A DNA stretch of 64,000 nucleotides from a virus (IMGVR_UViG_3300029319_009305:43886-107885); one strand, 5' to 3'; shown: positions 1 to 16,713, counted from the first letter of the stretch. Notes: generated from the letters alone by a model not told the origin. Program-made: numbers and translations.

Positions 1-4
1 AGCT

Positions 5-211
5 ATGCCTGATCAATATTCGGAAGGTTTTTTGATTGTCTTCAGCGCCGGGATAGGTATACTTGTTAGTAAGTGGGGTTTGAAATACCTTTCTCCCACG
101 GGTTTGGTTGTGACATGGGCTACACATAAAAATACCCTTATTGACGTTTTTAAGAAAAAAGGGCCCGAAGCTACTATGAACTTATATGTAGAATTATTTA
201 AAAATTTATAA
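5..211 (+). CDS. Small membrane protein, unknown function
   Basis: 68-residue protein beginning four bases into the window, so the ribosome binding site and any longer N-terminus cannot be judged. Residues about 9-25 form one hydrophobic segment rich in Gly, Ile and Val, which suggests a single membrane span; the remainder is basic and mixed. No family is recognised. It lies 53 bp upstream of the first gene with the MKLxRRQLRRLI leader. Confidence 0.45.
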   Translation: MPDQYSEGFLIVFSAGIGILVSKWGLKYLSPTGLVVTWATHKNTLIDVFKKKGPEATMNLYVELFKNL

Positions 212-213
212 TA

Positions 214-244
214 TTGATGGAATGTAGTGTTACAGATTTATAAT
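214..244 (+). promoter_or_regulatory. Possible sigma-70-type promoter
   Basis: TTGATG at 214-219 and TATAAT at 239-244, spaced 19 bases apart, lie 20 bp before the start of the gene at 265. The -10 box is perfect, but the spacing is one or two bases longer than optimal and the -35 box is partial, so this is tentative. Confidence 0.35.
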
Positions 245-264
245 TATGCATAAGGAGAATATTA

Positions 265-1308
265 ATGAAGATTACAAGAAAACAATTGCGACGACTAGTT
301 GAGGCTGAAGATTTAGGCGCCGAGGTGACGTCTCATCATCAGGGTACTAGAACTGTCCTTAAAAATGTTTACAATATGTTATCTAGTGAAATTAAAGCTA
401 GTACTAAAGAGGTAAAAAGTAGTAATGAAGAGCTTAAAGCCTTGATTAATTCTTTATTATCTAAAGAAAAATCTAGAAAAGTTCGAAAAGGTAATGTCAG
501 TGAATCCATGGACAATAGAATGAAATTATCAAGCAGCCAATTAAGGCAATTAATTAGAGAGACAATCCACAAAACAATAGGAGACAAAATGAAACTCAAT
601 AGAAGACAAATCAGACGCCTGATTGAATCGACTTTAAACGAGGCGTTGCCATCAGGATTCAATGTAGGACAAGGACAAAGAAATATTGCTGCTGACTTAC
701 TCAGGCAGCTAGCTGATATATACGACAACATCGATGGTTATAGCAGTTTTGAAGAGGATTTCAACAAAGCACATGATGAAGCTAAACGCACCGGTGACGG
801 CTATGTCCGACTCACTCAGATTATTGGAATTAATTCGTATTTTTTGACAGTGTCTAGTGATTCCGAACTGAGTGATTTGCAGAGTCTAGACGTGGACAGC
901 ATTGCTGCGAATTCTCGTCGGCCTACAGGAAATCGAGATTATGATGAGCAAGTTCCTTTCTTTCGTGATCACGCAACTGACCCTGGGAAGTACACACTTG
1001 TCCGATTCATTGACGACTGTAATAGAGCAGATCTAATGACCCGATTCGGAATTCAACAAATCGATAACCCGGTTTTTGATATTAACACGGGAGATCTCGT
1101 GGATGGAGGCCACGGTGAGGCTGAGCTTCAAAAGAGCGGTAATGCTCTGAGCATAATATATCCTGGCGACGGCAGGGCCCGCGGGAAGGTGAACACTGTG
1201 AGGGCTTCTAATCCTGGACTGGGTGTTCAATCAATTAGTAGAGGTGAGAAGTTCAGAAAAATTGCCGCACAAAAATGTCGAGAGCTAGCTGACGCACTGG
1301 AGCGGTAA
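265..1308 (+). CDS. Protein with three copies of a capsid-targeting-like leader motif
   Basis: 347 residues, preceded by AAGGAG at a good distance. The motif MKxxxxQLRxLIxE occurs three times: residues 1-15 (MKITRKQLRRLVEAE), 86-100 (MKLSSSQLRQLIRET) and 109-122 (MKLNRRQIRRLIES). Each copy contains an L/I-x-E site like that cut by T4 prohead protease gp21. The third copy has its own AGGAG at 579-583, five bases before an in-frame ATG at 589, so a shorter product of 239 residues is likely as well. The C-terminal 200 residues are soluble and resemble no family I recognise. The 3' half is clearly richer in G+C (about 45-55% in sampled 60-base lines) than most of the window. Inference: internal head protein or fused cargo proteins. 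Confidence 0.6.
   Translation: MKITRKQLRRLVEAEDLGAEVTSHHQGTRTVLKNVYNMLSSEIKASTKEVKSSNEELKALINSLLSKEKSRKVRKGNVSESMDNRMKLSSSQLRQLIRETIHKTIGDKMKLNRRQIRRLIESTLNEALPSGFNVGQGQRNIAADLLRQLADIYDNIDGYSSFEEDFNKAHDEAKRTGDGYVRLTQIIGINSYFLTVSSDSELSDLQSLDVDSIAANSRRPTGNRDYDEQVPFFRDHATDPGKYTLVRFIDDCNRADLMTRFGIQQIDNPVFDINTGDLVDGGHGEAELQKSGNALSIIYPGDGRARGKVNTVRASNPGLGVQSISRGEKFRKIAAQKCRELADALER
579..591 (+). promoter_or_regulatory. Internal ribosome binding site and start codon
   Basis: AGGAG (579-583), a five-base spacer and ATG (589-591) in frame inside the 265-1308 gene, exactly where the third MKLNRRQIRRLIE motif begins. The signal is as good as the one at the annotated start, so translation from here would give a second protein carrying the leader at its own N-terminus. 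Confidence 0.5.
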
Positions 1309-1313
1309 TTTTG

Positions 1314-1988
1314 ATGAAACTTAACAGAAGACAATTAAGAAGACTTATTCGGGAAGCACTCGATGTAAGAGATCCAGCTGCTATAAAAAGATATCAAGAA
1401 TTCAAGAAAAGCCGGCAGCCACCTGAGCTTGATGATGAATTTTATGACAGCTTTAAAGACGCTGAAGGGCGAATAGACCCTAAGCAATATGACGTTGCTG
1501 ACAAGCACTATGATGCTGCATTAAAGCGTATTGCTGATCGGGAAGCACAGGAAGAAGGTTATGAAGATGCTGATGACAAGTTCAATGATGAGTGGATGAA
1601 AGAAATAGAAGCTGAGAATGCTGCACGTGATGAAAGAAATCGCCGGGCCCGGGAATTTGCCGGCATTGATAACCCAAATTTTGATGTAGAATATTATAGT
1701 AAATTTAACTTACATAAGGGTTACGCTGAAAAAGCTCTGGCAAGTGGAAACGAGAAAGAATTTGAAAGTAACTATGGGAACATGGCTCTGTATGGAAACA
1801 TGATGTATGGTCCTGAATCTAATCGTTGGAAAGAAGAAGAGGGAGTTCCAGAGTTAACGCAAGCTTATGAAAAAGTTGTTGCGGGTAGTACGATAGATCA
1901 ACTTATTGATAGGGGTTTAGACGCAGACTTTTTTAATTATAAAAAATCGCCCACGCTTAAGGCACTTGGTTTATTTGATGATAAGTAG
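1314..1988 (+). CDS. Charged protein with N-terminal capsid-targeting-like leader
   Basis: 224 residues. I chose ATG 1314 over the TTG three bases earlier because GGAGCGG lies upstream at a normal distance and the ATG gives exactly the shared leader MKLNRRQLRRLIREAL. The leader contains I-R-E followed by A, matching the T4 gp21 prohead-protease rule (L/I-x-E before a small residue). The remainder is extremely rich in Asp, Glu, Lys and Arg with predicted long helices and no membrane segment. No family recognised. It follows the 265-1308 gene by five bases, so the two are co-transcribed and probably share a destination in the virion (inference). Confidence 0.6.
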   Translation: MKLNRRQLRRLIREALDVRDPAAIKRYQEFKKSRQPPELDDEFYDSFKDAEGRIDPKQYDVADKHYDAALKRIADREAQEEGYEDADDKFNDEWMKEIEAENAARDERNRRAREFAGIDNPNFDVEYYSKFNLHKGYAEKALASGNEKEFESNYGNMALYGNMMYGPESNRWKEEEGVPELTQAYEKVVAGSTIDQLIDRGLDADFFNYKKSPTLKALGLFDDK

Positions 1989-2006
1989 TTAGAGTTTGTT
2001 TTGGCG

Positions 2007-2066
2007 GAGGAGGACCGTTAGGTCCTACTCAGCAATCGTAGAGTAAAAGTCGCGCCGGCGAGGCCG
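2007..2066. other. Two GC-rich hairpins in an intergenic gap
   Basis: The 151-bp gap holds a stem AGGACC (2011-2016), loop GTTA, stem GGTCCT (2021-2026), extendable by GAG/CTC after one mismatch. A second small hairpin is formed by CGGC (2056-2059), loop GAG, GCCG (2063-2066). Neither is followed at once by a T run, so a simple intrinsic terminator is not obvious. They could be part of a structured RNA, a processing site, or a weak terminator of the upstream pair of genes. Confidence 0.35.
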
Positions 2067-2139
2067 TGATATATTTAAATTTTCTCTCCTTTAATTTTTG
2101 GATTTTACTTTTTAATCGGATAATTATGGGGAGGTTCTT

Positions 2140-2499
2140 ATGCTTGAATTTTTCAATATTAAGATGATATACGCAATTTGTTTTTTCGTGGCAGGTCATT
2201 GTTTAGGTTGGTACGCTCATAATTTACAATTTGTTAATGAATTTTGGAAAGACAAGGTTGTTCTTCCCACTATTATTTTTGGTATACCTTGTTTGCTCGC
2301 TTTTTGGTGGGGAACTAAGTTTGCAATGGAGGCCTCTGGTGAGCTCTGGACAGCTCGTTTTGTTGCAGCCGTGTTTTCATACCTAACGTTTCCAATAATG
2401 ACCTGGTGGTACCTTGGTGAATCCATGTTTACACTTAAGACAATATCTTGTGTGTTTCTTGCATTTTGTATTTTATTGATTCAAATATTTGTTAAATAG
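2140..2499 (+). CDS. Four-helix membrane protein, SMR/DMT-like
   Basis: 119 residues with four hydrophobic segments (about 8-25, 40-57, 70-88 and 97-117), preceded by GGGGAGG at a proper distance. The length, the four spans and the segment around ITWW-Y-LGES resemble small multidrug-resistance/DMT-type transporters, but the essential Glu of EmrE in helix 1 is not evident. Function is therefore open: a small transporter-like or holin-like membrane protein. It stands alone between two GC-rich hairpins and the lipoprotein pair. Confidence 0.5.
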   Translation: MLEFFNIKMIYAICFFVAGHCLGWYAHNLQFVNEFWKDKVVLPTIIFGIPCLLAFWWGTKFAMEASGELWTARFVAAVFSYLTFPIMTWWYLGESMFTLKTISCVFLAFCILLIQIFVK

Positions 2500-2572
2500 T
2501 TTCAAAATTCTTGTAAACATTTATTTAAACGCTGTATTATTTTGCAACCTAATAAAAATAGAGGAGGTAAAT

Positions 2573-2740
2573 ATGCGTTATGCATTGTTAGTTATGCTTC
2601 TTGCATGTAGTGATGAAGTAGAAGATACTGCTGCAGTAGAAGAAGAACAAGAAGCTCAGGTAGAAGATACTTCTGTAGAGGAAGAAGTCGAAGGTGAAGA
2701 AGAAGAATCAGCTGAGGGTGAATCTGAAGGAGAAGAATAA
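2573..2740 (+). CDS. Very small acidic lipoprotein
   Basis: 55 residues starting MRYALLVMLLAC. ATG 2573 follows GAGGAGG and is preferred to the long in-frame extension upstream. A minimal signal peptide ends in a lipobox (LLAC), so Cys-12 would be lipidated after export. The mature part is almost only Glu, Asp, Ser, Val and Ala and should be disordered. The gene is followed one base later by a second lipoprotein of the same design. Possible roles known for phage lipoproteins include spanin partners and superinfection exclusion; nothing here decides between them. Confidence 0.6.
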   Translation: MRYALLVMLLACSDEVEDTAAVEEEQEAQVEDTSVEEEVEGEEEESAEGESEGEE

Positions 2741-2741
2741 G

Positions 2742-2984
2742 ATGTTTTTATTTTTAATGATTCTTGCGTGTGAAAGTGAGACAACAACTGTTGAGACAAC
2801 AGAGACGAGTACTGATAATGTTCAGACGACTACTGAAGTTGACGTTGCTACAAAAAAGGTATCAGCAGAAACTAGTCAAGTTGTTGAATCTCAAAATACC
2901 CCACAAGACAATACGGTAATAACGGTTACTACAACTGAAATTCCCATGGATGAGTATACTGAAGAAGAAAAATCTAGTGATTAA
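2742..2984 (+). CDS. Small Thr-rich lipoprotein
   Basis: 80 residues starting MFLFLMILACES. ATG 2742 follows AAGGAG inside the end of the preceding gene, so translation is coupled. The ten-residue export signal ends in a lipobox (ILAC). The mature part is rich in Thr, Val, Glu and Ser and probably unstructured. It is followed by a strong terminator. Together with the gene before it, it forms a two-gene lipoprotein cassette of unknown function. Confidence 0.6.
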   Translation: MFLFLMILACESETTTVETTETSTDNVQTTTEVDVATKKVSAETSQVVESQNTPQDNTVITVTTTEIPMDEYTEEEKSSD

Positions 2985-3013
2985 CTTACTTTAAACTACA
3001 CATTCAAAAATTT

Positions 3014-3043
3014 AACGCCGGCTAATGCCGGCGTTTTTATTTT
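3014..3043 (+). terminator. Intrinsic terminator
   Basis: Perfect nine-base stem AACGCCGGC (3014-3022), loop TAAT, GCCGGCGTT (3027-3035), followed by a T-rich run. It closes the lipoprotein pair. Confidence 0.85.
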
Positions 3044-3091
3044 AAAAAATTAAAATTACTTGATAATTATAAGATAAAGGTGGAGATAAAC

Positions 3092-3487
3092 ATGAAGCTC
3101 ACAAAAAGACAACTTAAAACTTTGATAGAAGGTATGTTTGATGACATGTCACTTCAAACAACTGGTCATGGTGAAGAACCTGGTTACGGTGACCCAAATC
3201 TTAGTCCGCACTTAGGTTTGTCTCCTGATTTAGAAGAACCTGGCGTGCATCCCTCAAGACAAATTGGTACCGGTCAAATGGATGAAGAGGGTATGAAATA
3301 TTGGGGAAATTACATACTCAAAGAGCTTAATATGGGACCTTTGGATTTGGACAAATTACTTAATAAAGTTGCAGGTGATGATTCAGACGAAAGCATGCGT
3401 GACTCAATTTTGTCTGATCTGATGATTGTGATATCTAAATCAGATCAAATAGAGTTAGGTGAAGATCTTAACATAATAGCAAAGTAG
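3092..3487 (+). CDS. Small protein with capsid-targeting-like leader
   Basis: 131 residues. ATG 3092 lies just after AAAGGTGGAG and yields the shared leader MKLTKRQLKTLIEGMF, which has L-I-E before Gly and so fits the T4 prohead-protease rule. Residues 17-65 are Gly/Pro-rich and look flexible; the C-terminal 60 residues look helical (TLxILSDLMIVIS-like pattern). No family recognised. Terminators on both sides make it a single-gene unit. Inference: a packaged internal head protein. Confidence 0.55.
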   Translation: MKLTKRQLKTLIEGMFDDMSLQTTGHGEEPGYGDPNLSPHLGLSPDLEEPGVHPSRQIGTGQMDEEGMKYWGNYILKELNMGPLDLDKLLNKVAGDDSDESMRDSILSDLMIVISKSDQIELGEDLNIIAK

Positions 3488-6567: not shown

Positions 6568-6990
6568 CTACAGAATTCTAATTTTTCTTAACCTTGTTTC
6601 ATAGATAGCGCTTCTGTCATCTTTGCTTTTAGCAAATCTTTTAATCAATTCTCCTGCTCGGGCATTTGCTTGATCTTCGTGAAATCCACCTGCGTCTTGG
6701 ATGTGACCTTTTAACAGTCCTTGCTCATCCTGCATCATGTGGGTCATTTCATGTGCTATACTTCTGAGTATATCTACTAGTGCTCTATTTTTACCGTATA
6801 CTTTACATATGTTGTTACCCACATGATATGCTGCTGTTGTTTTTATGTCATGATCTGATCTATTTGATATGATATAGATTTCAAAATCACCGATTATGGG
6901 TAATTCTTCTGCGCAGAATAAGCAGAAGTCGCCTATTAGATTAATTTTAAAATTATCTAAATTTAAATTTTTATCAACTAGTAGTTTCAT
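6568..6990 (-). CDS. Zincin-like metalloprotease, short
   Basis: 140 residues. HEMTH at 80-84 is the HExxH zinc and catalytic motif; a downstream HEDQAN segment (104-109) offers a third acidic ligand. No signal peptide is visible, so it probably acts in the host cytoplasm or in the virion. Small zincins of this sort occur in phage genomes, mostly without known targets. It is transcribed with the serine-protease gene, which precedes it by nine bases on the same strand. Confidence 0.6.
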   Translation of the reverse strand: MKLLVDKNLNLDNFKINLIGDFCLFCAEELPIIGDFEIYIISNRSDHDIKTTAAYHVGNNICKVYGKNRALVDILRSIAHEMTHMMQDEQGLLKGHIQDAGGFHEDQANARAGELIKRFAKSKDDRSAIYETRLRKIRIL

Positions 6991-6999
6991 TTAAAGCCT

Positions 7000-7833
7000 T
7001 CAAAGTTTTAATTTTACAAAAGATTTTAGATATTTCAGTCTAGGTCCAAAACTTATATTATTAAAGTCGATTGATGCTTTTGTAATGATACTAATTATCT
7101 CTCCTTTTTCGTTTATTACCGCACTTCCTGAACTGCCAAATGTTGCAGGTATTGTGTAAAAACATTCATATATGTCGCAACCAGAAAATCTACCTTCAAA
7201 ATGATTCCTTACTGACTTAGAATAGTGCCATTCAGGTGAAGAGATTGCATAAACTTTTTCACCGATCAGAGGATTTCTTTTAGCAAACTTAACATTTTTT
7301 GCTTCCCCCGCATGTTCAGAATTAAATGTTATTATACATATGTCATTTTCCATGTCCATGTATATATCTTGAATATCATGTTGATATCCCATAAAAGATG
7401 CAATATTTCTAGTCATAGGTTCATAGTCTAAGTTATGTCTGAATGTTTCTGAGACATTATCTTTATTTAAGTCATGACACCAGTGTCCTGCTGTTAATGC
7501 ATATAGTTTATAGTTTTTCTTATCAACTTTAAAAATGTAACCAGAAGCTGAGGTTAGGGGTGCTATCAAAGTTTCACAGTCCTTGTAGTCTTCTTCTTTC
7601 TGACATATTCTTTCTGTATCATTTGAACCTGCTACAATTCTTGTTAAGTATATAAAATTTTCATTTAAAGCCGGCGTATTACTTGATTGTTTTAGAGTCT
7701 TCTGATAGTTGTTAAATTTTATTTTTTCTTCTAAAATATTTTTATTGTAACTACAGCAACCTAAACTCGTAGTAAAAATTGTAATTAGTGCCGTTAATGC
7801 TATTGTAAAGTATAATAATTTATTTTTATTCAT
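7000..7833 (-). CDS. Exported trypsin-like serine protease
   Basis: 277 residues from ATG 7833, chosen over ATG 7860 because AAGGGGGT precedes it and the upstream ATG overlaps the probable promoter. A hydrophobic signal segment (about 6-24) ends at GCC, which might be lipidated although the lipobox is not canonical. The catalytic triad is visible in order: His in TAGHWC, Asp in MENDICII and Ser in GSSGSAV, the PA-clan (chymotrypsin/V8-like) signature. It would act in the periplasm or outside. The zincin gene follows it on the same strand. A phage use could be processing of surface proteins or of the phage's own envelope proteins. Confidence 0.65.
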   Translation of the reverse strand: MNKNKLLYFTIALTALITIFTTSLGCCSYNKNILEEKIKFNNYQKTLKQSSNTPALNENFIYLTRIVAGSNDTERICQKEEDYKDCETLIAPLTSASGYIFKVDKKNYKLYALTAGHWCHDLNKDNVSETFRHNLDYEPMTRNIASFMGYQHDIQDIYMDMENDICIITFNSEHAGEAKNVKFAKRNPLIGEKVYAISSPEWHYSKSVRNHFEGRFSGCDIYECFYTIPATFGSSGSAVINEKGEIISIITKASIDFNNISFGPRLKYLKSFVKLKL

Positions 7834-7851
7834 GCACACCCCCTTAAAATA

Positions 7852-7880
7852 GATATGCATTAAAAAATATAATTTGTCAA
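7852..7880 (-). promoter_or_regulatory. Possible promoter for the protease pair
   Basis: On the minus strand TTGACA (complement of 7875-7880) is a perfect -35 box; 17 bases on lies a weak -10 CATATC (7857-7852). It sits just before the chosen start of the serine protease. Confidence 0.4.
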
Positions 7881-8085
7881 TGTATTAATTTAAATGTTAC
7901 ATAATCACTCCTGAATTTGAAATAGAATTTGAATATTTAGATATAGTAATAAGATACTAATGAGTCATATTTTTTTTTACAATTTTTGTAAATTATTAGT
8001 GTTTTGTTGAATTATTACTCATATAATATTACTTTATTTAACTTAATAGAATATAGAGTATAATTATAGATATAGAGAGCAACGC
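7881..8085. promoter_or_regulatory. AT-rich divergent control region with -10 box before the PrkA operon
   Basis: About 200 bp of very AT-rich sequence between the divergent protease pair and the DUF444 operon. TATAAT at 8059-8064 lies 22 bases before the ATG at 8086; the matching -35 (TTTAAC-like near 8038) is poor. No gene or hairpin is seen in it. Confidence 0.45.
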
Positions 8086-9255
8086 ATGTCAATATTTAAA
8101 GAACATAAATCTTCAGCTGATAGATCTGCAACTGATAGAAGGAGACATAAAGAAAAAATTGAGAAAGCAATAAAAGAAGGAATTCATGATATCGTAGCAG
8201 AAGAAAGTATAATTGGACAAAACGGTAAAAAAAGAATAAAAATACCAGTTAGGGGAATTAAAGAATACCAATTCATATATGGTAAAAACAATAAAAAAGT
8301 TGGGTCAGCTCAAGGTAAGGACATTTCAAAAGGTCAAAAAATAGGTAAGGGTAAGAAAAAATCTGCTCAAGGACAACCAGACAAACCTGGTAATACGGCT
8401 GGAGAAGAATTTTATGAAGTTGATATAACACTCGATGAATTAGCAAAGTATTTATTTGATGATTTGAATTTACCTGAGTTAGAAAAGAAATCATTTCCCA
8501 ACATATTTTCTGAAACTGTTAAGCGGAAAGGTTATAGAAAGGAAGGAATTAGACCTAGACTTTCAAAAAAAGAAACTTTAAAGAGAAAGATTAGAAGAAA
8601 AAAAGCTGCAATATTAAACGGTACTTATGAAAATGAAAGTGGTGAAAGGTTTCCATTTCACAAAGATGATCTCAAGTATAAACACATAGAAGTGACACAG
8701 AAAAATGTTACAAATGCAACCATATTTTTTATAATGGATACATCTGGATCGATGAGTAAAAGTAAAAAATTCAAAGCTAGATCCTTTTTCTTTCTCCTAT
8801 ATCAGTTTATTAGATATCGTTATGATAAGACTGAAATTGTTTTTATATCTCATACAACCGAAGCTAAAGAAACTAATGAAAAAGAATTTTTTGAAAGAGG
8901 GTCTAGTGGTGGAACTTACTTAAGCTCTGGGTTGAGCAAAGCTTTAGAAATTATTGATAAGCGATATCCATCTAATAGTTGGAACATATACGCTTTCCAT
9001 TGTTCAGATGGAGATAATTGGAGTGAAGATAACGACAAGGCAATTAATTTAACAATTAAATTAAGAGACTTAAGTCAATTGTATAGTTATATAGAGATAA
9101 CTGACGGTAGAAAGGGTTCTGCCGGTTGGGGAGAACCAATGTCCTCGATTTATAAGAATTTGCAAAATAAATTTTTTAAGATTGTTGAGATAGACAATAA
9201 AGAAGATATATGGCCACAATTTAGAAAACTTTTCGGGAATTATAAAAATGAGTGA
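8086..9255 (+). CDS. yeaH: DUF444 protein (YeaH/YhbH family), VWA domain
   Basis: 389 residues, the usual length for this family (B. subtilis YhbH is of similar size). An N-terminal basic region precedes a C-terminal von Willebrand factor A domain starting near residue 210 with the metal-ion site MDTSGSM (217-223). In bacteria the gene neighbours the kinase gene prkA/yeaG and often spoVR/ycgB, and all three belong to stress or stationary-phase regulons; the protein's biochemical role is not settled. Here it opens an operon with the same partners, overlapping the SpoVR gene by eight bases. Only a weak Shine-Dalgarno (GAGAG) is seen. A phage-borne copy is unexpected. Confidence 0.85.
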   Translation: MSIFKEHKSSADRSATDRRRHKEKIEKAIKEGIHDIVAEESIIGQNGKKRIKIPVRGIKEYQFIYGKNNKKVGSAQGKDISKGQKIGKGKKKSAQGQPDKPGNTAGEEFYEVDITLDELAKYLFDDLNLPELEKKSFPNIFSETVKRKGYRKEGIRPRLSKKETLKRKIRRKKAAILNGTYENESGERFPFHKDDLKYKHIEVTQKNVTNATIFFIMDTSGSMSKSKKFKARSFFFLLYQFIRYRYDKTEIVFISHTTEAKETNEKEFFERGSSGGTYLSSGLSKALEIIDKRYPSNSWNIYAFHCSDGDNWSEDNDKAINLTIKLRDLSQLYSYIEITDGRKGSAGWGEPMSSIYKNLQNKFFKIVEIDNKEDIWPQFRKLFGNYKNE

Positions 9256-10594
9256 CGACAACTGGAATTTTGACGATTTAAAACGCTGGGATGATATTAT
9301 TTGTCAAAAAGCAGAATCTTTCGGTTTGGACTGGCATCCAATTAATTATGAAATATGTGATTATTTCGAAATGATTGGACACATGTCGTATCACGGCATG
9401 CCTAGCCATTACAATCACTGGAGTTATGGAAAATCTTTTGAAGTTACTCACCAGAGATATAATGCAGGTATGTCAGGTCTACCTTATGAGTTGATAATTA
9501 ATTCTAATCCTTCAATTGCTTATCTTATGAGGGAGAATCCGTTATATTTGCAAATTTTAATAATGGCACATTGTGTAGGACACAGTGACTTTTTTAAAAA
9601 TAATAGAACTTTTCGAAAAACCGGACCTGAAACAATTGTTTCTAAAATGAGAAATGCAAAAAGACGAATATTTGAATATTCAGAAGATCAAATGATAGGA
9701 AAGGACAAAGTTGAGAATTTTTTAGACGCTTTACATTCTGTAAGATTTCAAACAGAAAGATATGAATTACCTAGACTGACACCTAGAGAAAAGCAAAAGA
9801 ATTTCATAGATAAAATAAATAATTCAAAATTGTTAAAAAATGCTGATCCTGACAAAAGAAAAAGATATGAAAGATTGGTGGGGAAAAAATGGTTAATTGG
9901 AAACGATTATGACTTATTAGGATTCTTTTTAGACTATGGTGATTTTGATGACTGGCAGTTAGATTTGATCAATATAGTTAGGGATGAATCACACTATTTT
10001 ATACCTCAAATAAAAACAAAAATACTAAATGAGGGTTGGGCATCATTTTGGCATTATAAGATTTTACATGAATTAGAATTGCCTCAAAAATATCACATAC
10101 CTTTTTTGAAAATGCACAATGCAGTAGTCAGACCTCACATAGGTGGGGTCAATCCTTATCATTTGGGTTTTTATTTGTTTCAAAAGATAGAAAGGGAAAT
10201 GGGATTAGAAGAATGCTTTTTCATTAGAGAAGTTCATGATGATGCATCAGCATTAAGAGCTTACTTAGACGAAGAAGATATGGTAGAGTTAAACTTTTTC
10301 GAGCACCAAAGAGATCAAAAAACAGGAGATACATTTATAACAGAAGTATCAGATAAGGATGGTTGGAAAAAAGTAAAACAAGAATTAATAAGAAATACAG
10401 GAGTAGCTAGTATTCCGCTAATATATGTGTCTGAAGTTAATAAAAAATTAAATTTGTTAGAATTAAAACACGAACACGATGGAAGAGACTTAGAGCTAAA
10501 CTATGCTGAGGAAGTCGTTAAAAACATTAAACATATATGGGACGGTGAAGTAAAACTATTTACTGTAATTGAAGAAGAAATATGGGAAATTTAA
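9248..10594 (+). CDS. spoVR: SpoVR/YcgB family protein
   Basis: 448 residues. Hallmarks of the family are visible: WHPINYEICDY near the N-terminus, HMSYHGMPSHYNHWSYGKSF around 50-70, an ENP...LIMAHCVGHSDFF stretch and the later NEGWASFWHYKIL segment. SpoVR was named for spore cortex formation in Bacillus, but in Gram-negative bacteria YcgB belongs to the stationary-phase response and usually travels with PrkA and DUF444. It starts inside the end of the DUF444 gene and ends 12 bp before prkA, so the three are one translation-coupled unit. Confidence 0.85.
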   Translation: MSDDNWNFDDLKRWDDIICQKAESFGLDWHPINYEICDYFEMIGHMSYHGMPSHYNHWSYGKSFEVTHQRYNAGMSGLPYELIINSNPSIAYLMRENPLYLQILIMAHCVGHSDFFKNNRTFRKTGPETIVSKMRNAKRRIFEYSEDQMIGKDKVENFLDALHSVRFQTERYELPRLTPREKQKNFIDKINNSKLLKNADPDKRKRYERLVGKKWLIGNDYDLLGFFLDYGDFDDWQLDLINIVRDESHYFIPQIKTKILNEGWASFWHYKILHELELPQKYHIPFLKMHNAVVRPHIGGVNPYHLGFYLFQKIEREMGLEECFFIREVHDDASALRAYLDEEDMVELNFFEHQRDQKTGDTFITEVSDKDGWKKVKQELIRNTGVASIPLIYVSEVNKKLNLLELKHEHDGRDLELNYAEEVVKNIKHIWDGEVKLFTVIEEEIWEI

Positions 10595-10606
10595 AAGGGA
10601 GAACCA

Positions 10607-12541
10607 ATGTCACAAAAAAAATTCCTTGAACTTATATCAAAACAAAGACGTAAGAACAAAAAAGAAAAATTCAAAGGTACGTTTCTTGAATACTTAGAGG
10701 TTGTACAAGATAAACCAACAACAATAAAATTGGCTCATAAGCGATTGTATGATGTAATCAATAATCAAGGTATGAAAACAGTAGATGTTGGTGACGAAGA
10801 TTATAGGCCATATTTTAACGGTGAAAAACTTAGAAAATTTCAATATTTTGAAAAAGAATTTTTTGGGATGGAAACTGTTATTCATAAATTAATGCAGTAT
10901 TTAAAATCAGCTGCTTTAAAAGGTGAGGAAAGTAGACAAGTTTTACTTTTAATGGGCCCAGTAGGCGCAGGTAAGTCTGCACTTATAGAACATGTTAAGC
11001 AGTCATTAGAAATGACTGATCGAATCTATCATTTAGATGGGTGTCCCATAAGAGAAGAACCTCTTCATTTAATACCTAGAAGTTTAAGACCTCAATTTGA
11101 AGAAATGCTAGGTATACACATTGAGGGAGATTTATGTCCTGTTTGCAGGCATAGACTCATGGAAGAGTTTAATGGAGAATATGAAAACTTTCCTGTTACA
11201 CAAAGCAGCTTTTCTCAAAGGGGAAGAAGAGGAATTGCTGTTGTTCCTCCCATGGACGCTAATTCTCAAGATGTTTCTGTTTTAATTGGTACAGAGGATA
11301 TATCTAAGCTTGATCTGTATCCAGAAGATGATCCAAGAGTTTTATCTTTAAATGGTGCTTTTAATGTAGGAAATAGAGGGATTGTAGAATTTGTAGAAGT
11401 TTTTAAGAATGAAATTGAATTTCTTCACACAATGTTAACAGCTACCCAGGAAAAGCGTGTACCTTCACCTGGAAAAAATGATATGCTTTATTTTGACGGT
11501 GTGTTGTTAACACACTGTAACGAATCAGAATGGAACAGATTCAAGGGTGAGCATACAAATGAGGCAATTTTAGATAGGGTTTTGAAAATTAACGTGCCGT
11601 ATGTTTTAGAGTTAGATCAGGAAATGAAAATTTATGAAAAAATGATTAATAGGTCAGACTTTAAATCAGCACATATCGCACCACATACTTTGAAAATTGC
11701 TTCAATGTTTTCTGTTATGAGTAGGTTTATTCCATCCTCAAAATGTGATTTATTGACAAAGATGAAAATCTACAATGGCGAATCAATAATTGAAAAAGGT
11801 AGGGTTAAAAAAATAGATATTAAAGATTTAAGAGCTGAAGCGCGTAACGAGGGAATGGAAGGCATATCCACAAGATTTATTACAAAATCTCTGGATAGGG
11901 CTTTAAGCGATTCAGATAAGAATATGATTACACCAATTAATGCTATCGATAGTTTAGTTAAGCAAGTAAAAGAACAAATAATCGATGACGATGCAAGAGA
12001 ACGCTACTTAGAAATCTTGCAAGATATAATTCGTGAAGAATATTTAAGAATTCTTGAAACAGAAATTGCAAAAGCTTTCATAGCAGCTTACGAGGAACAA
12101 GCACAGAGTTTATTTGATTCATACTTAGACAATGCTGAATGTTATACTACTAGAACAAAAGTTAAGGATAGAATTACAAGAGAAGAAAGAGAACCTGATG
12201 AAAAATTTATGAAGTCAATTGAAGAGATGATTGGTGTTGTAGGTTCTGCTAGGGATGGATTTAGAAACGATGTAACAGCTTATATGTTTGCAAAAATGAG
12301 AAAAGGGGAAAAGGTTGATTATTCAAGCTACGGACCGCTTAAAGAAGCAATCGAGCAATTTTTAATTACATCAGTTAAAGACATATCTAGAATTGTTACG
12401 AAGTCAAAAAGTAGAGATGACAAACAAAAAAGAAAGTATTCGAATATGATTAATACGCTTGTCGAAGATTATGGTTATACACCTGATAGTGCTGAGGAAA
12501 TATTGACTTACGCAGCTAATAATCTTTGGAGAGACAGTTAG
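10607..12541 (+). CDS. prkA: PrkA/YeaG serine protein kinase-like AAA+ protein
   Basis: 644 residues, close to the 630-645 of bacterial PrkA. The AAA+ core has Walker A GPVGAGKS at 117-124 and a CPVC pair (177-180) as in PrkA. The following segments (FSQRGRRGIAVVPP; FVEVFKNEIEFLHTMLTATQE; AILDRVLKINVPY) match the conserved PrkA core, and a C-terminal kinase-like domain follows. Bacterial members are reported as Ser/Thr kinases or AAA+ proteases/unfoldases of the starvation response. GGGAG lies before the ATG. All main motifs appear intact, so activity is plausible. Confidence 0.88.
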   Translation: MSQKKFLELISKQRRKNKKEKFKGTFLEYLEVVQDKPTTIKLAHKRLYDVINNQGMKTVDVGDEDYRPYFNGEKLRKFQYFEKEFFGMETVIHKLMQYLKSAALKGEESRQVLLLMGPVGAGKSALIEHVKQSLEMTDRIYHLDGCPIREEPLHLIPRSLRPQFEEMLGIHIEGDLCPVCRHRLMEEFNGEYENFPVTQSSFSQRGRRGIAVVPPMDANSQDVSVLIGTEDISKLDLYPEDDPRVLSLNGAFNVGNRGIVEFVEVFKNEIEFLHTMLTATQEKRVPSPGKNDMLYFDGVLLTHCNESEWNRFKGEHTNEAILDRVLKINVPYVLELDQEMKIYEKMINRSDFKSAHIAPHTLKIASMFSVMSRFIPSSKCDLLTKMKIYNGESIIEKGRVKKIDIKDLRAEARNEGMEGISTRFITKSLDRALSDSDKNMITPINAIDSLVKQVKEQIIDDDARERYLEILQDIIREEYLRILETEIAKAFIAAYEEQAQSLFDSYLDNAECYTTRTKVKDRITREEREPDEKFMKSIEEMIGVVGSARDGFRNDVTAYMFAKMRKGEKVDYSSYGPLKEAIEQFLITSVKDISRIVTKSKSRDDKQKRKYSNMINTLVEDYGYTPDSAEEILTYAANNLWRDS

Positions 12542-12546
12542 GAAGA

Positions 12547-13839
12547 ATGAAAAATTTTGTTAACATTGTTGATGAAAAAAATTTAAGAATAAAAACTTTT
12601 TCCTCGTTGTCACACTTTAGAAATAAAATAAAAGATAACGATATCATATACACAAATAATTTTAAGACTAAAAAAAATTATCTTAATTTTATTAATCAAT
12701 ATTTTGGAAACTACTTTGATACAACTGTAAAACATTTAATTGTTGGAGAATTATGGTTGATTGAAAGTTTTGCGCCAGGTTTAGGTGATGTGTTTCTTGA
12801 TTATTTGACAGAATATTTTGAAAAACATTCTGATCATGATGCTAAAAAAAGTGAATTAGTTTTAAAAGATTTTTTAAATGAAAAGTTGTCTAATTTTAGT
12901 AGTAAAGTCTATAGACTTAACAAGAAAGACTTGAACGATTATGTGAGTTATATATCAAGTAGTACTATTAAAGACATAGCAAAAACAGTCATACAGAAGT
13001 CAGAAGTTAATGATTCTATTATTGTTGAAGATTCTTTTAGAAGTTATTCGACTGTTAAAAAAACTAATGAACTGTTTTTTAAATTAGAATTTGATAGTGA
13101 ATTTATTTTATCCAACACTTGGAATGCTGAAGATTATCGATATATTATTATCGATGGGTTTATTGACAGCGTAGGTGAAATTCATCATTTACTACAAAAA
13201 GCATCAGAGGATAAAGAACCTTACGTTATTTTTTGCAAAGGTATGAGAGAGGAAGTTAAACATACAATACTCTACAATTTAAAAAGAAACACAATAAATG
13301 TAATGCCTATTTGTTTGAAAACAAATGAAGAAAATGTTAATGCATTAAACGATATAGCATCTTGTCACGATGGTAAGATAATAAGTGCTTTACACGGCGA
13401 TACAATATCTTCTGCTGTAAAAAGAGAATTGATGGTAGGTAGGAAAATTTCTGTAAAAAAGACAGGATTTACGATTCATTGCATGAATGAAAAAACAAAA
13501 AATATTCAAATTGGATTTTTGAAGATGAAATTAAAAAACCTGACAGAGAAAGATCCAAATTATTCCTTTATTCAGAAAAGAATAAAAAATTTAAATTCAA
13601 AAAAAATTATGATCTCTTTGGCTAAAAATATTAGCAAGAATGAAAAAATTGAGTTGGACGGATTTTTAAAGTTTGTGATGAATGCAAAATCAGGAACAGT
13701 TAAAATGTTAAACAAAAATAAATCTGGCACAAAAAGAGGGATTTACAGTATTCGTGAGTTGAATATACTCTTTACGAAGCTAGAAGCAGTTATTAGAACG
13801 ATTGATAGCTTAGGATGCATAGTATATCAGGAGAGATGA
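12547..13839 (+). CDS. Divergent GroEL-like (Cpn60) protein without visible ATP site
   Basis: 430 residues (GroEL is about 548). ATG 12547 comes directly after the prkA stop; a TTG 21 bases upstream is possible. Residues about 125-165 read like the GroEL intermediate domain (YISSSTIKDIAKTVIQKS, then SIIVEDS, compare GTISAN...GVITVEDG). Residues about 190-275 match the apical domain (YIIIDGFIDSVGEIHHLLQK; PYVIFCKGMREEVKHTILYN; the following LNDIASCHDGKIIS corresponds to QDIATLTGGTVIS). The return strand (GRKISVKKTGFTIH) and a coiled pair of helices ending before KKIMISLAK also align. The N-terminal equatorial motif GDGTTT is not seen, nor the GGG near the C-terminus. Likely a degenerate or specialised chaperonin; the assignment is by eye. 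Confidence 0.6.
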   Translation: MKNFVNIVDEKNLRIKTFSSLSHFRNKIKDNDIIYTNNFKTKKNYLNFINQYFGNYFDTTVKHLIVGELWLIESFAPGLGDVFLDYLTEYFEKHSDHDAKKSELVLKDFLNEKLSNFSSKVYRLNKKDLNDYVSYISSSTIKDIAKTVIQKSEVNDSIIVEDSFRSYSTVKKTNELFFKLEFDSEFILSNTWNAEDYRYIIIDGFIDSVGEIHHLLQKASEDKEPYVIFCKGMREEVKHTILYNLKRNTINVMPICLKTNEENVNALNDIASCHDGKIISALHGDTISSAVKRELMVGRKISVKKTGFTIHCMNEKTKNIQIGFLKMKLKNLTEKDPNYSFIQKRIKNLNSKKIMISLAKNISKNEKIELDGFLKFVMNAKSGTVKMLNKNKSGTKRGIYSIRELNILFTKLEAVIRTIDSLGCIVYQER

Positions 13840-13841
13840 TT

Positions 13842-14063
13842 ATGGCAACGAAAAAAAATTTAGAGAGTAAAGTAACAACATCTGTAAAAGATTTGGTGGA
13901 TTTTATTAAAATGCAGGCTAAAAATAACATTGTTGAGCAAACAAGGGACTTAGGTGTAGAAAAAAACGATTTGCAAAAAATATGCCGAATTGTTGATATG
14001 AGCATAACAGCATCTTTTTTGCAAGGTATTGATAATGTTGTAAAACAAGTTACAAAAGACTGA
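13842..14063 (+). CDS. Small helical protein, unknown function
   Basis: 73 residues from ATG 13842, with CAGGAG upstream at a good distance. It begins MATKKNLESKV and is predicted all-helical. No family recognised. The start is two bases after the GroEL-like gene, and the stop overlaps the next ATG, so it belongs to the same operon. Confidence 0.5.
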   Translation: MATKKNLESKVTTSVKDLVDFIKMQAKNNIVEQTRDLGVEKNDLQKICRIVDMSITASFLQGIDNVVKQVTKD

Positions 14064-14557
14064 TGAACCGTGAAAATTGGGATAAAATTGGAATAAAGCA
14101 TTTGATAGAGTGTCATTGTACTTTAAAAATATACAAAGGTAGCGAAAATCATTTGTATCATAAATTCCCAGTTTATTCAAAATTTGACAATCAAACAAAT
14201 AAACTGATTGAAAAAATAGTCCCATGTAATAATTGTCAAACTTTACACAAAGTTTATGATGTTTGTAAATCCGATATTGTTAAAAGTGGAAAGGATGAAA
14301 ATAAGGCAGCAGTAAGCATTGAAGATATCTCTTTACAACTCCCCTATAAGATAAATAATGTTCTAGTAAAATATCAAAGTGATATATCTACTTGGGAACA
14401 AGTCTTAGATATTGTTGAGTGTGAGGCTTGGTCTTACAAAGTTGTCTTATCTCGAGAGTTAATAGAAGGTAAATACCACGTCAAAACTTTAGAAATATTA
14501 AGTGAAGATAAGATAAAAATAGAATCAAAAATAATTGAAGATGAAATAAAATTTTAG
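14063..14557 (+). CDS. Unknown protein with Cys pairs (possible zinc ribbon)
   Basis: 164 residues; ATG overlaps the preceding stop codon. An N-terminal ECHC pair and a PCNNC pair about 37 residues later could bind one zinc. Between them is HKFPVYSKFD, and the second half is a mixed alpha/beta region (STWEQVLDIVECEAW). Similar short proteins with CHC...CxxC occur in marine T4-like phages in my recollection, without a function. Part of the PrkA operon. Confidence 0.5.
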   Translation: MNRENWDKIGIKHLIECHCTLKIYKGSENHLYHKFPVYSKFDNQTNKLIEKIVPCNNCQTLHKVYDVCKSDIVKSGKDENKAAVSIEDISLQLPYKINNVLVKYQSDISTWEQVLDIVECEAWSYKVVLSRELIEGKYHVKTLEILSEDKIKIESKIIEDEIKF

Positions 14558-14567
14558 GAGGAGCGTA

Positions 14568-14849
14568 ATGCCAGAAAAAATTGGAGAAACAGAAGCTGAA
14601 TTAGAAGCATCACAATTAGTAGAGTGCAGACAAATAGTTAGAAACGTAATTAATTTTGGTGTCACAGAAAAACAAAAAATTCATTTAATTTATCTTCTAT
14701 CCTTAGAATTAGAATCTAGAGATGCAATGAATATTATTGTAGATTCTGTTAAAAAAATAAAAAATCTTGACGAAGATATTAAATTTAGTTTAACACAGCA
14801 AGAAAATGATTATAATAATAATCAAAAGCCAAAGCTTTTGGAAATATAA
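14568..14849 (+). CDS. Small helical protein, unknown function
   Basis: 93 residues after a strong AGGAGGAG. Rich in Glu, Ile, Lys and Leu, predicted helical throughout, with a charged Asn-rich tail. No family recognised. It sits between the Cys-pair protein and the Hc1-like gene in the same operon. Confidence 0.5.
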   Translation: MPEKIGETEAELEASQLVECRQIVRNVINFGVTEKQKIHLIYLLSLELESRDAMNIIVDSVKKIKNLDEDIKFSLTQQENDYNNNQKPKLLEI

Positions 14850-14870
14850 AAATAACTTAATGGAGGAAGC

Positions 14871-15068
14871 ATGTCCAGTCGACAAACAGATTTATTAACA
14901 AAATGGGAAGAACTTAAAGTTCTAATTGAGTCTCTTGAACAAGATATTCATAAAAACGTTAGCGGTAATAAGTCAGCAGGTGTTAGAGCTAGAAAAGGTC
15001 TTAGACTAGTGAAGACAAACGCCAGTGAAATTGTTAAAGTTTCGCTAGCTGCAGACAAAGAAAGCTAA
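14871..15068 (+). CDS. Histone H1-like (Hc1-type) small DNA-binding protein
   Basis: 65 residues, GGAGG upstream. The core (WEELKVLIESLEQDIHK, then GNKSAGVRARKGLRLVKTNA) has the pattern of the N-terminal domain of Hc1-like histones known from Chlamydia and Bacteroidetes: ExLxxLIxxLExD, then GNKxAGxRxRKxLxxLK. The Lys/Ala-rich tail of chlamydial Hc1 is missing, as in the short bacterial versions. Probable role is DNA binding or nucleoid compaction, of host or phage DNA. It is the last gene of the PrkA operon. Confidence 0.6.
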   Translation: MSSRQTDLLTKWEELKVLIESLEQDIHKNVSGNKSAGVRARKGLRLVKTNASEIVKVSLAADKES

Positions 15069-15089
15069 AAAATTATTTTTATTTATTTT

Positions 15090-15323
15090 TTAAGAGAGTA
15101 CATTTTGTACTCTTTTTTTTATCTTTTTTATGATGTTCTTTTCTATTTGACAAACTCTCATTCGTGTTATGCTGTATAACTCCCCTATGTCTTGTAAAGT
15201 TTTAGGTCCATTATTAGCACAATTAATAACACAATTTTGATTATCTTTAATTTTTAACCAATATCTGCATGATTTTTTGTTACATAATTTATCATTATTG
15301 GCATAGTATTCGTAGCACTTCAT
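15090..15323 (-). CDS. Stand-alone sigma-70 region-4 protein with N-terminal Cys cluster
   Basis: 77 residues from ATG 15323, preceded by GGAG; an ATG 18 bases upstream lacks such a site. The C-terminal half (GPKTLQDIGELYSITRMRVC, then QIEKNIIKKIKK) is the helix-turn-helix of sigma-70 region 4.2, which reads the -35 box (compare LEEIGxxxxVTRERVRQIExxALxKL). The N-terminal half has Cys at 3, 14, 19, 30 and 34, possibly a metal site. There is no region 2, so it cannot act alone as a sigma factor; it could pair with the gp55-like factor at 47846 or redirect host RNA polymerase. Divergent from PIN-PhoH. Confidence 0.65.
   Translation of the reverse strand: MKCYEYYANNDKLCNKKSCRYWLKIKDNQNCVINCANNGPKTLQDIGELYSITRMRVCQIEKNIIKKIKKRVQNVLS
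15095..15120. terminator. Intrinsic terminator
   Basis: Stem AGAGTACA (15095-15102), short T loop, TGTACTCT (15106-15113), followed by seven more T. It ends the PrkA operon. The same hairpin falls in the last codons of the opposing minus-strand gene. Confidence 0.8.
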
Positions 15324-15399
15324 AATTATTAACGTCTCCATTTCAACTAATTAATGTTTATTATAACGAGACAATCTAAAATTAACAATTGGAGTTAAA

Positions 15400-16713
15400 G
15401 TGAGAAAATTATTTATTGTTGACACGTCTGTTCTTTTGTACGATAAGAGCTCAATACATTCATTCCCAGAAATTGATATTGTAGTGCCATTAGTTGCCTT
15501 AGATGAACTTGATAGGTTTAAAGAAAAAAAAGGTGTGACAGGAGAATCTGCACGATATGTCAATAGATTTTTAGATGAATTAAGAAAACTTGGTAGTTTA
15601 CATGAAGGGGTAGAATTAGAAAACGGTCAAACAATCAGAGTTGCTTTAGAAGGTTACAATAGTGTTCCTGAAGGCTTAAATGGTGATGATGCAGATAACA
15701 AAATGATATCGTTAGCTTTGGTGCTATCTAAAAGCCAAGAACAACCAATTACCTTGATCACAAAAGATATTAACTTCAGAGTTAAGTGTGATGCTTTAGG
15801 GATTAATTCTGAAGACTACTACAAGGACAAAGTAATTGATTTTGAAGATGAATCGTACAAAGGCTTTGTTGAGTTAAAAATAGATCCTGAACATGATCAC
15901 TTGATTGATTCTTTCTACGACGACGAGGATATTCTAGAAGATTTTGAAGATTTACTTGGGCGCAAACTTTTTCCTAATGAGTTCTTGACTGTAAAGTCTG
16001 GTAAAAGTAGATCTATGATTGCTTGTAAGAGAAATAATAGATTAAGCAAGGTCAAAGAGACTGGTCAACTTGAAGATTTTATGGGCATTAAACCTAGAAA
16101 TAGAGAGCAGCTATTTGCTTTAGACTTGCTTACAAATGATGATGTACCTTTAATATCATTGACAGGAATAGCAGGATCAGGAAAGACTTTTCTTACACTT
16201 ATGGCAGGTTTAGATGGTTTAAATAAGAAAAGGTATAAAAGAATTGTAATAACTAGAAATATTCAACCTGTTGGTAGAGATATTGGGTTTTTACCAGGAG
16301 ATGCAAATGAAAAAATGCTACCTTGGATTGCACCAATTATGGATAATTTCAGGCAAGGCACTAAAGACGAAGACATGTCTTATTTTGAAATTATGAGAAA
16401 AACAGGAAAGATCGAAATAGCACCGCTAGCTTTTATGCGAGGAAGAACATTCTCAGACACATTTCTAATAATTGATGAGTCACAGAATAGCACTATTCAT
16501 GAGTTAAAGACAGTTATAACAAGAATTGGTGAGAATTCAAAAATTGTTCTATTAGGAGATACAGATCAAATTGATACTCCCTATATAGACTCGCTGTCGA
16601 ATGGTTTAACAATAGTAGGAGAGAAATTTAAAAATCAAGAAATGGCTGGGCACATACAGCTTCAAAAAGGTGAAAGATCACCTCTATCTTTTTTGGCTTC
16701 TAAAATTTTATAA
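15400..16713 (+). CDS. phoH: PIN domain-PhoH ATPase fusion (PhoH2 type)
   Basis: 437 residues from GTG, with GGAG upstream. Residues 1-140 form a PIN nuclease domain with its acidic residues (FIVDTSVLL, ALDELDRF, GDDADNKM, TKDINF). Residues about 235-430 form the PhoH P-loop domain with GIAGSGKT (about 255-262) and Walker B LIIDESQN. PhoH2-type proteins join RNA cleavage and RNA unwinding; phoH is also a common marine phage marker gene. It follows a divergent region and precedes the glycan locus. Confidence 0.85.
   Translation: MRKLFIVDTSVLLYDKSSIHSFPEIDIVVPLVALDELDRFKEKKGVTGESARYVNRFLDELRKLGSLHEGVELENGQTIRVALEGYNSVPEGLNGDDADNKMISLALVLSKSQEQPITLITKDINFRVKCDALGINSEDYYKDKVIDFEDESYKGFVELKIDPEHDHLIDSFYDDEDILEDFEDLLGRKLFPNEFLTVKSGKSRSMIACKRNNRLSKVKETGQLEDFMGIKPRNREQLFALDLLTNDDVPLISLTGIAGSGKTFLTLMAGLDGLNKKRYKRIVITRNIQPVGRDIGFLPGDANEKMLPWIAPIMDNFRQGTKDEDMSYFEIMRKTGKIEIAPLAFMRGRTFSDTFLIIDESQNSTIHELKTVITRIGENSKIVLLGDTDQIDTPYIDSLSNGLTIVGEKFKNQEMAGHIQLQKGERSPLSFLASKIL

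Follow-up and report, generated by a model that had tools for sequence, protein, structure and literature searches.

What does a phage gain from a complete bacterial starvation module, the genes for PrkA, DUF444 and SpoVR, and how did the set come to be there? The joint role of the three proteins is unsettled even in bacteria, and the reports on PrkA conflict between species. We addressed the question in the window, the whole 64,000-base stretch of DNA analysed here, which comprises bases 43886-107885 of a 107,885-base IMG/VR virus record.

Gene layout, PrkA and DUF444

A preliminary description of this DNA placed three full-length genes at 8086-12541, and both the open reading frames and the Pfam matches agree with it. 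All on the plus strand, they encode a DUF444 or YhbH-type protein of 389 amino acids with a vWA domain and a full MIDAS (8086..9255), a SpoVR protein of 448 amino acids (9248..10594) and an AAA+ ATPase, PrkA, of 644 amino acids with a C-terminal PrkA domain (10607..12541). The DUF444 and SpoVR genes overlap by 8 bases, and the PrkA gene begins 12 bases past SpoVR with GGGAG ahead of its ATG, a tight arrangement that suits coupled translation. A fourth gene, absent from the preliminary description, begins 5 bases past the prkA stop with AGGAAG ahead of its ATG (12547..13839, plus strand; the mechanical listing starts at a TTG at 12526) and encodes a GroEL-like pseudo-chaperonin that lacks the ATP-binding motif. 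The same gene run continues on the plus strand with an 82-residue open reading frame that has relatives in a few loci (13815..14063) and a 164-residue one, ORF164, that most related phage loci also keep downstream (14063..14557). A terminator-like hairpin, recognised by consensus match only, may mark the end of the transcription unit (15092..15116, plus strand), and beyond it lies a flanking gene conserved by synteny, which encodes a PIN-PhoH protein (15400..16713, plus strand; Pfam PhoH 8.1e-53, PIN_4 1e-23). No T4-type late promoter (TATAAATA) was found upstream of the module on the plus strand, the motif being rarer than chance, and sigma-70-like promoter sites occur at chance level only. 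Upstream of the module, a divergent open reading frame on the minus strand (7000-7860) encodes a trypsin-like protease (Pfam E 2.1e-8) that also resembles RT-Protease_XI models weakly. Farther along the window, 16770-43858 holds a long run of reading frames that, judged by eye, resemble glycosyltransferase, sugar-nucleotide and methyltransferase genes.

PrkA is recognised through both of its Pfam domains, AAA_PrkA (PF08298, E 2.1e-140, 468 bits, cut-off 25) and the C-terminal domain (PF06798, E 4e-78, 263 bits, cut-off 25), and it matches the solved relative 9xip at E 3.7e-183. The PrkA-family structure in PDB entries 9xip, 9xiq and 9xir (30 chains in the 3 entries) is deposited as a serine protein kinase. 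The motifs quoted in the preliminary description, GPVGAGKS and CPVC in PrkA and MDTSGSM in DUF444, are all present. GPVGAGKS is the Walker A motif by sequence and alignment (residues 117-124; 10955..10978, plus strand), and conservation extends to the presumed Walker B, sensors 1 and 2 and the arginine finger, as well as to the glutamates of the aligned B-like motif; roles other than that of Walker A were assigned by alignment alone. The loss of PrkA activity that had been raised as a caution finds no sign here, all of the predicted ATPase residues being retained. CPVC, placed by alignment (residues 177-180; 11135..11146, plus strand), is not the key motif it was taken for: it is not family-wide, and since its position reads SPxA in one subclade of these phages and SPWA in a YeaG from enterobacteria, it is no mark of activity.

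The DUF444 protein matches its Pfam family at E 6.9e-111 (371.7 bits, cut-off 27) and NCBIfam YhbH TIGR02877 with 412 bits, under that model's cut-off of 468. Sequence and alignment identify DTSGS (residues 218-222; 8737..8751, plus strand) as the DxSxS motif of the MIDAS, and the DTSGS, GGT and SDG motifs align across phage and bacterial proteins. Weak similarity reaches further, from DUF444 to a vWA-bearing cobaltochelatase subunit (E 2.6e-4) and from the PrkA profile to Lon and RavA, the RavA match (E 6e-4) being all that speaks for MoxR membership of the PrkA AAA+ domain. AAA+ and vWA genes are paired at the locus, as in MoxR-type systems. The PADLOC models of anti-phage defence gave only weak, partial PrkA matches (DolB 1.3e-4, mad8 0.0057), with no known defence system clearly recognised among them.

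Spread and descent of the module

The PrkA protein search alone yielded 33 viral loci at 67-88% identity, and an alignment search found relatives of PrkA encoded in at least 576 IMG/VR stretches, of which the best 80 were kept. Our comparison covered 93 loci: 91 from IMG/VR, the window, and a binned contig, L044. The full triplet stands in one order, DUF444-SpoVR-PrkA, in 87 of them, and the other 6 end within the triplet; ORF164 and PhoH follow downstream in most. The GroEL-like gene lies 3' of prkA in 86 of the 93 and is missing from L026-L030, L032 and L165. A T4 gp23-type major capsid gene is present in nine relatives, the L044 contig among them, and several relatives have genomes larger than 230 kb, from which we conclude that the carriers are large T4-like phages; no gp23-type gene was found in the window's own record, which is a fragment. 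L044 itself, the 305,838-base contig NHDW01000006.1, is filed in a Methylococcaceae MAG; it carries gp23, GroEL and the module and resembles a jumbo phage.

These comparisons bear on the preliminary description. A contig join or bacterial contamination had been named as a threat to its reading; this was checked and rejected on the strength of the 87 same-order triplets, the gp23 genes of nine relatives, base composition that is even across the DUF444, SpoVR and PrkA genes with no jump, and the baseplate wedge genes present on the same virus contig. The claim of a complete, conserved and translation-coupled module in a true phage is upheld by the same synteny and by the gene overlaps. Rarity in phages is not borne out, given the at least 576 IMG/VR stretches with a PrkA relative and the GenBank phages that carry the triplet.

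Did the three genes arrive together? In quick tree searches with long branches flagged, and with the best 80 matches as the bacterial sample, the aquatic phages form one clade in each protein tree (support 100 for PrkA, 100 for SpoVR and 86 for DUF444), and small groups recur among the trees, such as the window with L002, L026 with L029, and L168 with L136. One phage clade per protein and shared subgroups point to a single acquisition and joint descent, so that the aquatic phage lineage probably gained the module in one event and has handed it down whole; the phylogenetic check proposed earlier for the three proteins thus comes out in favour of their having travelled together. Recent transfer from host to phage was rejected because every protein has its own phage clade. 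Relative to L002, dN is 0.133 for DUF444, 0.133 for SpoVR and 0.110 for PrkA with dS saturated, that is, amino acids have been strongly conserved while synonymous sites became saturated. As judged from these sequence comparisons, the phages have long had their own version of the bacterial PrkA-DUF444-SpoVR module, passed on by vertical descent.

In the PrkA tree a set of Clostridia and Negativicutes is sister to the aquatic phages (support 83); the SpoVR and DUF444 trees leave the donor unsettled. Clostridial and deltaproteobacterial prkA-yhbH(DUF444)-spoVR operons hold the same three families with a CPxC-type PrkA, and the closest bacterial group, among the best 80 bacterial matches, shows about 52-60% PrkA identity. 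The bacterial operons are ordered PrkA-DUF444-SpoVR, whereas the phages have DUF444-SpoVR-PrkA, and no GroEL-like gene follows the module in the clostridial and deltaproteobacterial loci seen. The E. coli genes yeaG-yeaH and ycgB belong to the same families as the phage module, and the YeaG K426 position is kept in the phage; ycgB occupies a locus separate from yeaGH. An enterobacterial PrkA of the Enterobacter type, from the record of phage LAU1, is about 33% identical and lacks CPxC. In that record (L037, MN688132.1, Enterobacter phage LAU1), yeaG and yeaH stand at the extreme left end (1-3308) and are possibly host DNA.

Phages appear to have taken up the module several times, as judged from the separate placement of Thermus and huge phages. 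The isolated Thermus phages phiYS40, Lalka27b, phiLo and MN1 carry all three genes, arranged as in the window, but their proteins are only about 22-35% identical to those of the window and are apparently of separate origin, grouping with Sulfobacillus in the PrkA (96) and DUF444 (83) trees; in phiYS40 (L035, 4061-5911) an extra hypothetical gene lies between spoVR and prkA. Two kinds of huge phage sit elsewhere in the trees: LR745206, LR756504 and LR756511 have the complete triplet, like the window phage, but in the bacterial gene order and at separate tree positions, and one of their SpoVR proteins bears an intein-like insertion. SpoVR (ORF28) and PrkA (ORF30) have also been reported in an isolated Ralstonia jumbo phage, RsoM2USA, the former 56% identical to a Vibrio protein and the latter with its best match in Alcanivorax (PMC8504454). 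The triplet in Thermus phages and the SpoVR and PrkA of the Ralstonia jumbo phage are therefore already known. What is new, as far as the tools used here show, is how deeply and coherently the module is established among large aquatic T4-like phages, together with two features considered below, an ATP-motif-less derivative of GroEL and a metallopeptidase-like reading of SpoVR.

SpoVR and the GroEL-like protein

The SpoVR protein matches its Pfam family at E 1.4e-113 (380 bits, cut-off 27), and its C-terminal domain, SpoVR_C, reaches 27.7 bits against a cut-off of 27.6. HExxH and NEG are motifs of gluzincins such as M1. SpoVR has an HxxxH sequence (H108 and H112; 9569..9583, plus strand) and an NEGWA sequence (N261-A265; 10028..10042, plus strand) that resemble the M1-type pair apart from the glutamate of HExxH, which is absent: position 109 is C, V or A, never Glu, in all 37 aligned proteins, drawn from bacteria and three phage groups. 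Invariant across the same 37 are H108, H112, E262, E81, Y304 and D332, and within NEGWA also G263 and A265. H108, H112 and E262 are presumed to be three candidate metal ligands, with E262 as the third, and SpoVR may cut nothing, given the missing glutamate. In the huge phage LR756504.1 (L042), the intein-like insertion in the SpoVR reading frame (14456-16366) falls directly after NEG, at the presumed metal site.

The AlphaFold model of SpoVR (pLDDT 87.9) is largely helical. In the VIA-align ranking an unnamed lipoprotein comes first (Z 11.7, rmsd 3.5 over 180 residues), at a score near the Z of 12 that can come from arrangement alone; the eleven rows that follow are peptidases or zinc-protease folds, with Z from 9.3 to 5.2. 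By peptidase family, these rows include M32 (9.3 and 8.0), M3 (8.9 and 6.6) and M61 (6.7), and further rows among the top twelve are ACE2 (M2), M48-like, M34 and M13. Foldseek gave no significant match to the model (best E 0.21), a sequence search for a solved SpoVR relative found none, and comparison with the small open reading frame at 6568-6990 revealed no relation. The model nevertheless suggests a gluzincin metallopeptidase-like fold, and motif and fold ranking each hint, separately, at one answer. A literature search on SpoVR and zincins, with most subscription papers outside its range, returned no such report. RNA binding in vivo has been reported for B. subtilis SpoVR (PMC12456014); this fits a role other than that of a metalloenzyme, and every model must accommodate it.

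The GroEL-like reading frame (12547-13839) had no Pfam match of note, and its kinship emerged from other comparisons. The window protein matches the NCBIfam GroEL model at E 2.4e-12; a profile of 33 phage relatives, A2, in which no GroEL was included, finds PDB GroELs at E 2.8e-31; and 27 of these 33 match phrog_5725, the PHROG named chaperonin groEL. The AlphaFold model (pLDDT 86.8) matches the GroEL fold with Z about 22 over residues 10-437, and the apical domain superimposes on that of GroEL with an rmsd of 2.6 A over 175 residues. Group I chaperonins, including GroEL and those of phages EL and AR9, share the fold over residues 10-437. The GroEL-like protein has about 430 amino acids compared with about 545 in GroEL, and alignment indicates that GDGTT and neighbouring N-terminal ATP-site motifs have been lost and the C-terminal equatorial part shortened; none of 87 relatives has GDGTT at the expected position. 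We have filed the protein as a GroEL derivative rather than a functional GroEL because this ATP-binding motif is absent.

Each of the six relatives above 230 kb that were searched has a separate full-length GroEL with GDGTT, as does the L044 contig. L026, one of the loci without the GroEL-like gene, has a full GroEL at 861-2498 on the minus strand, about 5 kb from its triplet (7441-11923, plus strand). A canonical GroEL (PF00118) was not found in the window's record, a fragment. It is unusual for phages to carry an ATP-motif-less derivative in addition to a normal GroEL. Compared with its counterpart in L002, the nearest relative, the GroEL-like gene has a dN of 0.49; such fast evolution is expected if partners vary, and relaxed constraint may also account for it. 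A functional tie to PrkA is suggested by the gene order and no more than that, because ORF164 and PhoH are conserved at the locus as well, and the gene could be a mere syntenic neighbour of the module.

Possible roles during infection

AAA+ and vWA proteins pair up elsewhere, as in RavA-ViaA and the metal chelatases. On the basis of such pairs and of the weak matches of PrkA to RavA and of DUF444 to the cobaltochelatase subunit, we propose tentatively, at somewhat less than an even chance, that the module is an ATP-driven protein-remodelling machine with SpoVR as its effector or client. PrkA would form an ATP-driven ring, the MIDAS metal of the DUF444 vWA domain would take hold of an acidic residue on the client, following the pattern of other AAA+/vWA pairs, and the motor could then pull on a target or activate it conformationally. 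SpoVR would be either an effector enzyme fed by the motor or a metalloprotein activated by PrkA and DUF444. The GroEL-like protein, with an apical domain of the substrate-binding type and apparently no ATP cycle, may bind clients or present them, and its fast evolution makes host proteins possible candidates. During infection, the altered state of host proteins would probably slow or redirect host metabolism, much as YeaG-YeaH do in starved E. coli.

Two functions had been offered in the preliminary description. Remodelling of proteins appears to be the one best suited to the anatomy of the module. That the phage keeps a starved host productive is opposed by work in E. coli, where YeaG and YeaH jointly bring metabolism to rest, acting as a "metabolic brake" (PMC10954441); by analogy, a brake on the host is likelier than support of its growth.

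Such a brake could also be the whole explanation: the module would slow host metabolism in the manner of YeaG-YeaH and so stretch resources over a long infection, with the molecular mechanism left open and the GroEL-like gene merely a neighbour. We consider this possible but rather less probable than remodelling. It draws on the joint action of YeaG and YeaH (PMC10954441), on the genomes above 230 kb of several relatives and on the nearby PhoH, but the nearest bacterial modules are of the clostridial/deltaproteobacterial type and not YeaGH. A metal activase, in which PrkA-DUF444 fills the SpoVR metal site or activates it like RavA-ViaA, NorQ-NorD or CobS-CobT, and SpoVR is the actual enzyme or an RNA-binding effector, is a doubtful proposition. 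The weak profile matches to RavA and to the cobaltochelatase subunit, the invariant candidate ligands of SpoVR and the strict co-occurrence of the three genes are in keeping with it, but the links are all weak or indirect, and in E. coli ycgB lies apart from yeaGH. Help in folding or assembling phage particles, with the GroEL-like protein taking part, seems decidedly unlikely: phage chaperonins do exist (PMC7185714, PMC9598537), and a chaperonin-derived gene lies within the run, but the module comes from bacteria, a full GroEL is already present in six large relatives, and the GroEL-like protein has lost its ATP motif. Least probable by our estimate is Ser/Thr kinase signalling, in which PrkA phosphorylates host or phage proteins with the others as accessories: the historical annotation, E. 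coli YeaG phosphoproteomics (PMC8055822) and the retained lysine aligned with YeaG K426 are set against the absence of detectable kinase activity in purified B. anthracis PrkA, attributed to a missing kinase P-loop (PMC13001217), and against the position of this lysine just after the presumed sensor-2 arginine, where several homologues have Asp.

The remodelling machine, to return to it, can be given a more ambitious form, one we regard as improbable when taken in all its parts: PrkA-DUF444-SpoVR would be an unrecognised ATP-driven metalloenzyme machine that couples an AAA+ motor through a vWA adaptor to a gluzincin-type effector whose active site is rearranged, and large T4-like phages would have fixed it as a core takeover tool, with an ATPase-dead chaperonin presenting host proteins to it. 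Purified B. anthracis PrkA is reported to show hardly any kinase or protease activity in vitro (PMC13001217), and B. subtilis PrkA has been reported as a protease (JBC 2022, as related in PMC13001217). The predicted fold of SpoVR, with its invariant candidate ligands, points to a concrete site and may explain why no activity is seen with PrkA by itself. That many large aquatic phages conserve the module so strictly is a sign of its importance for infection.
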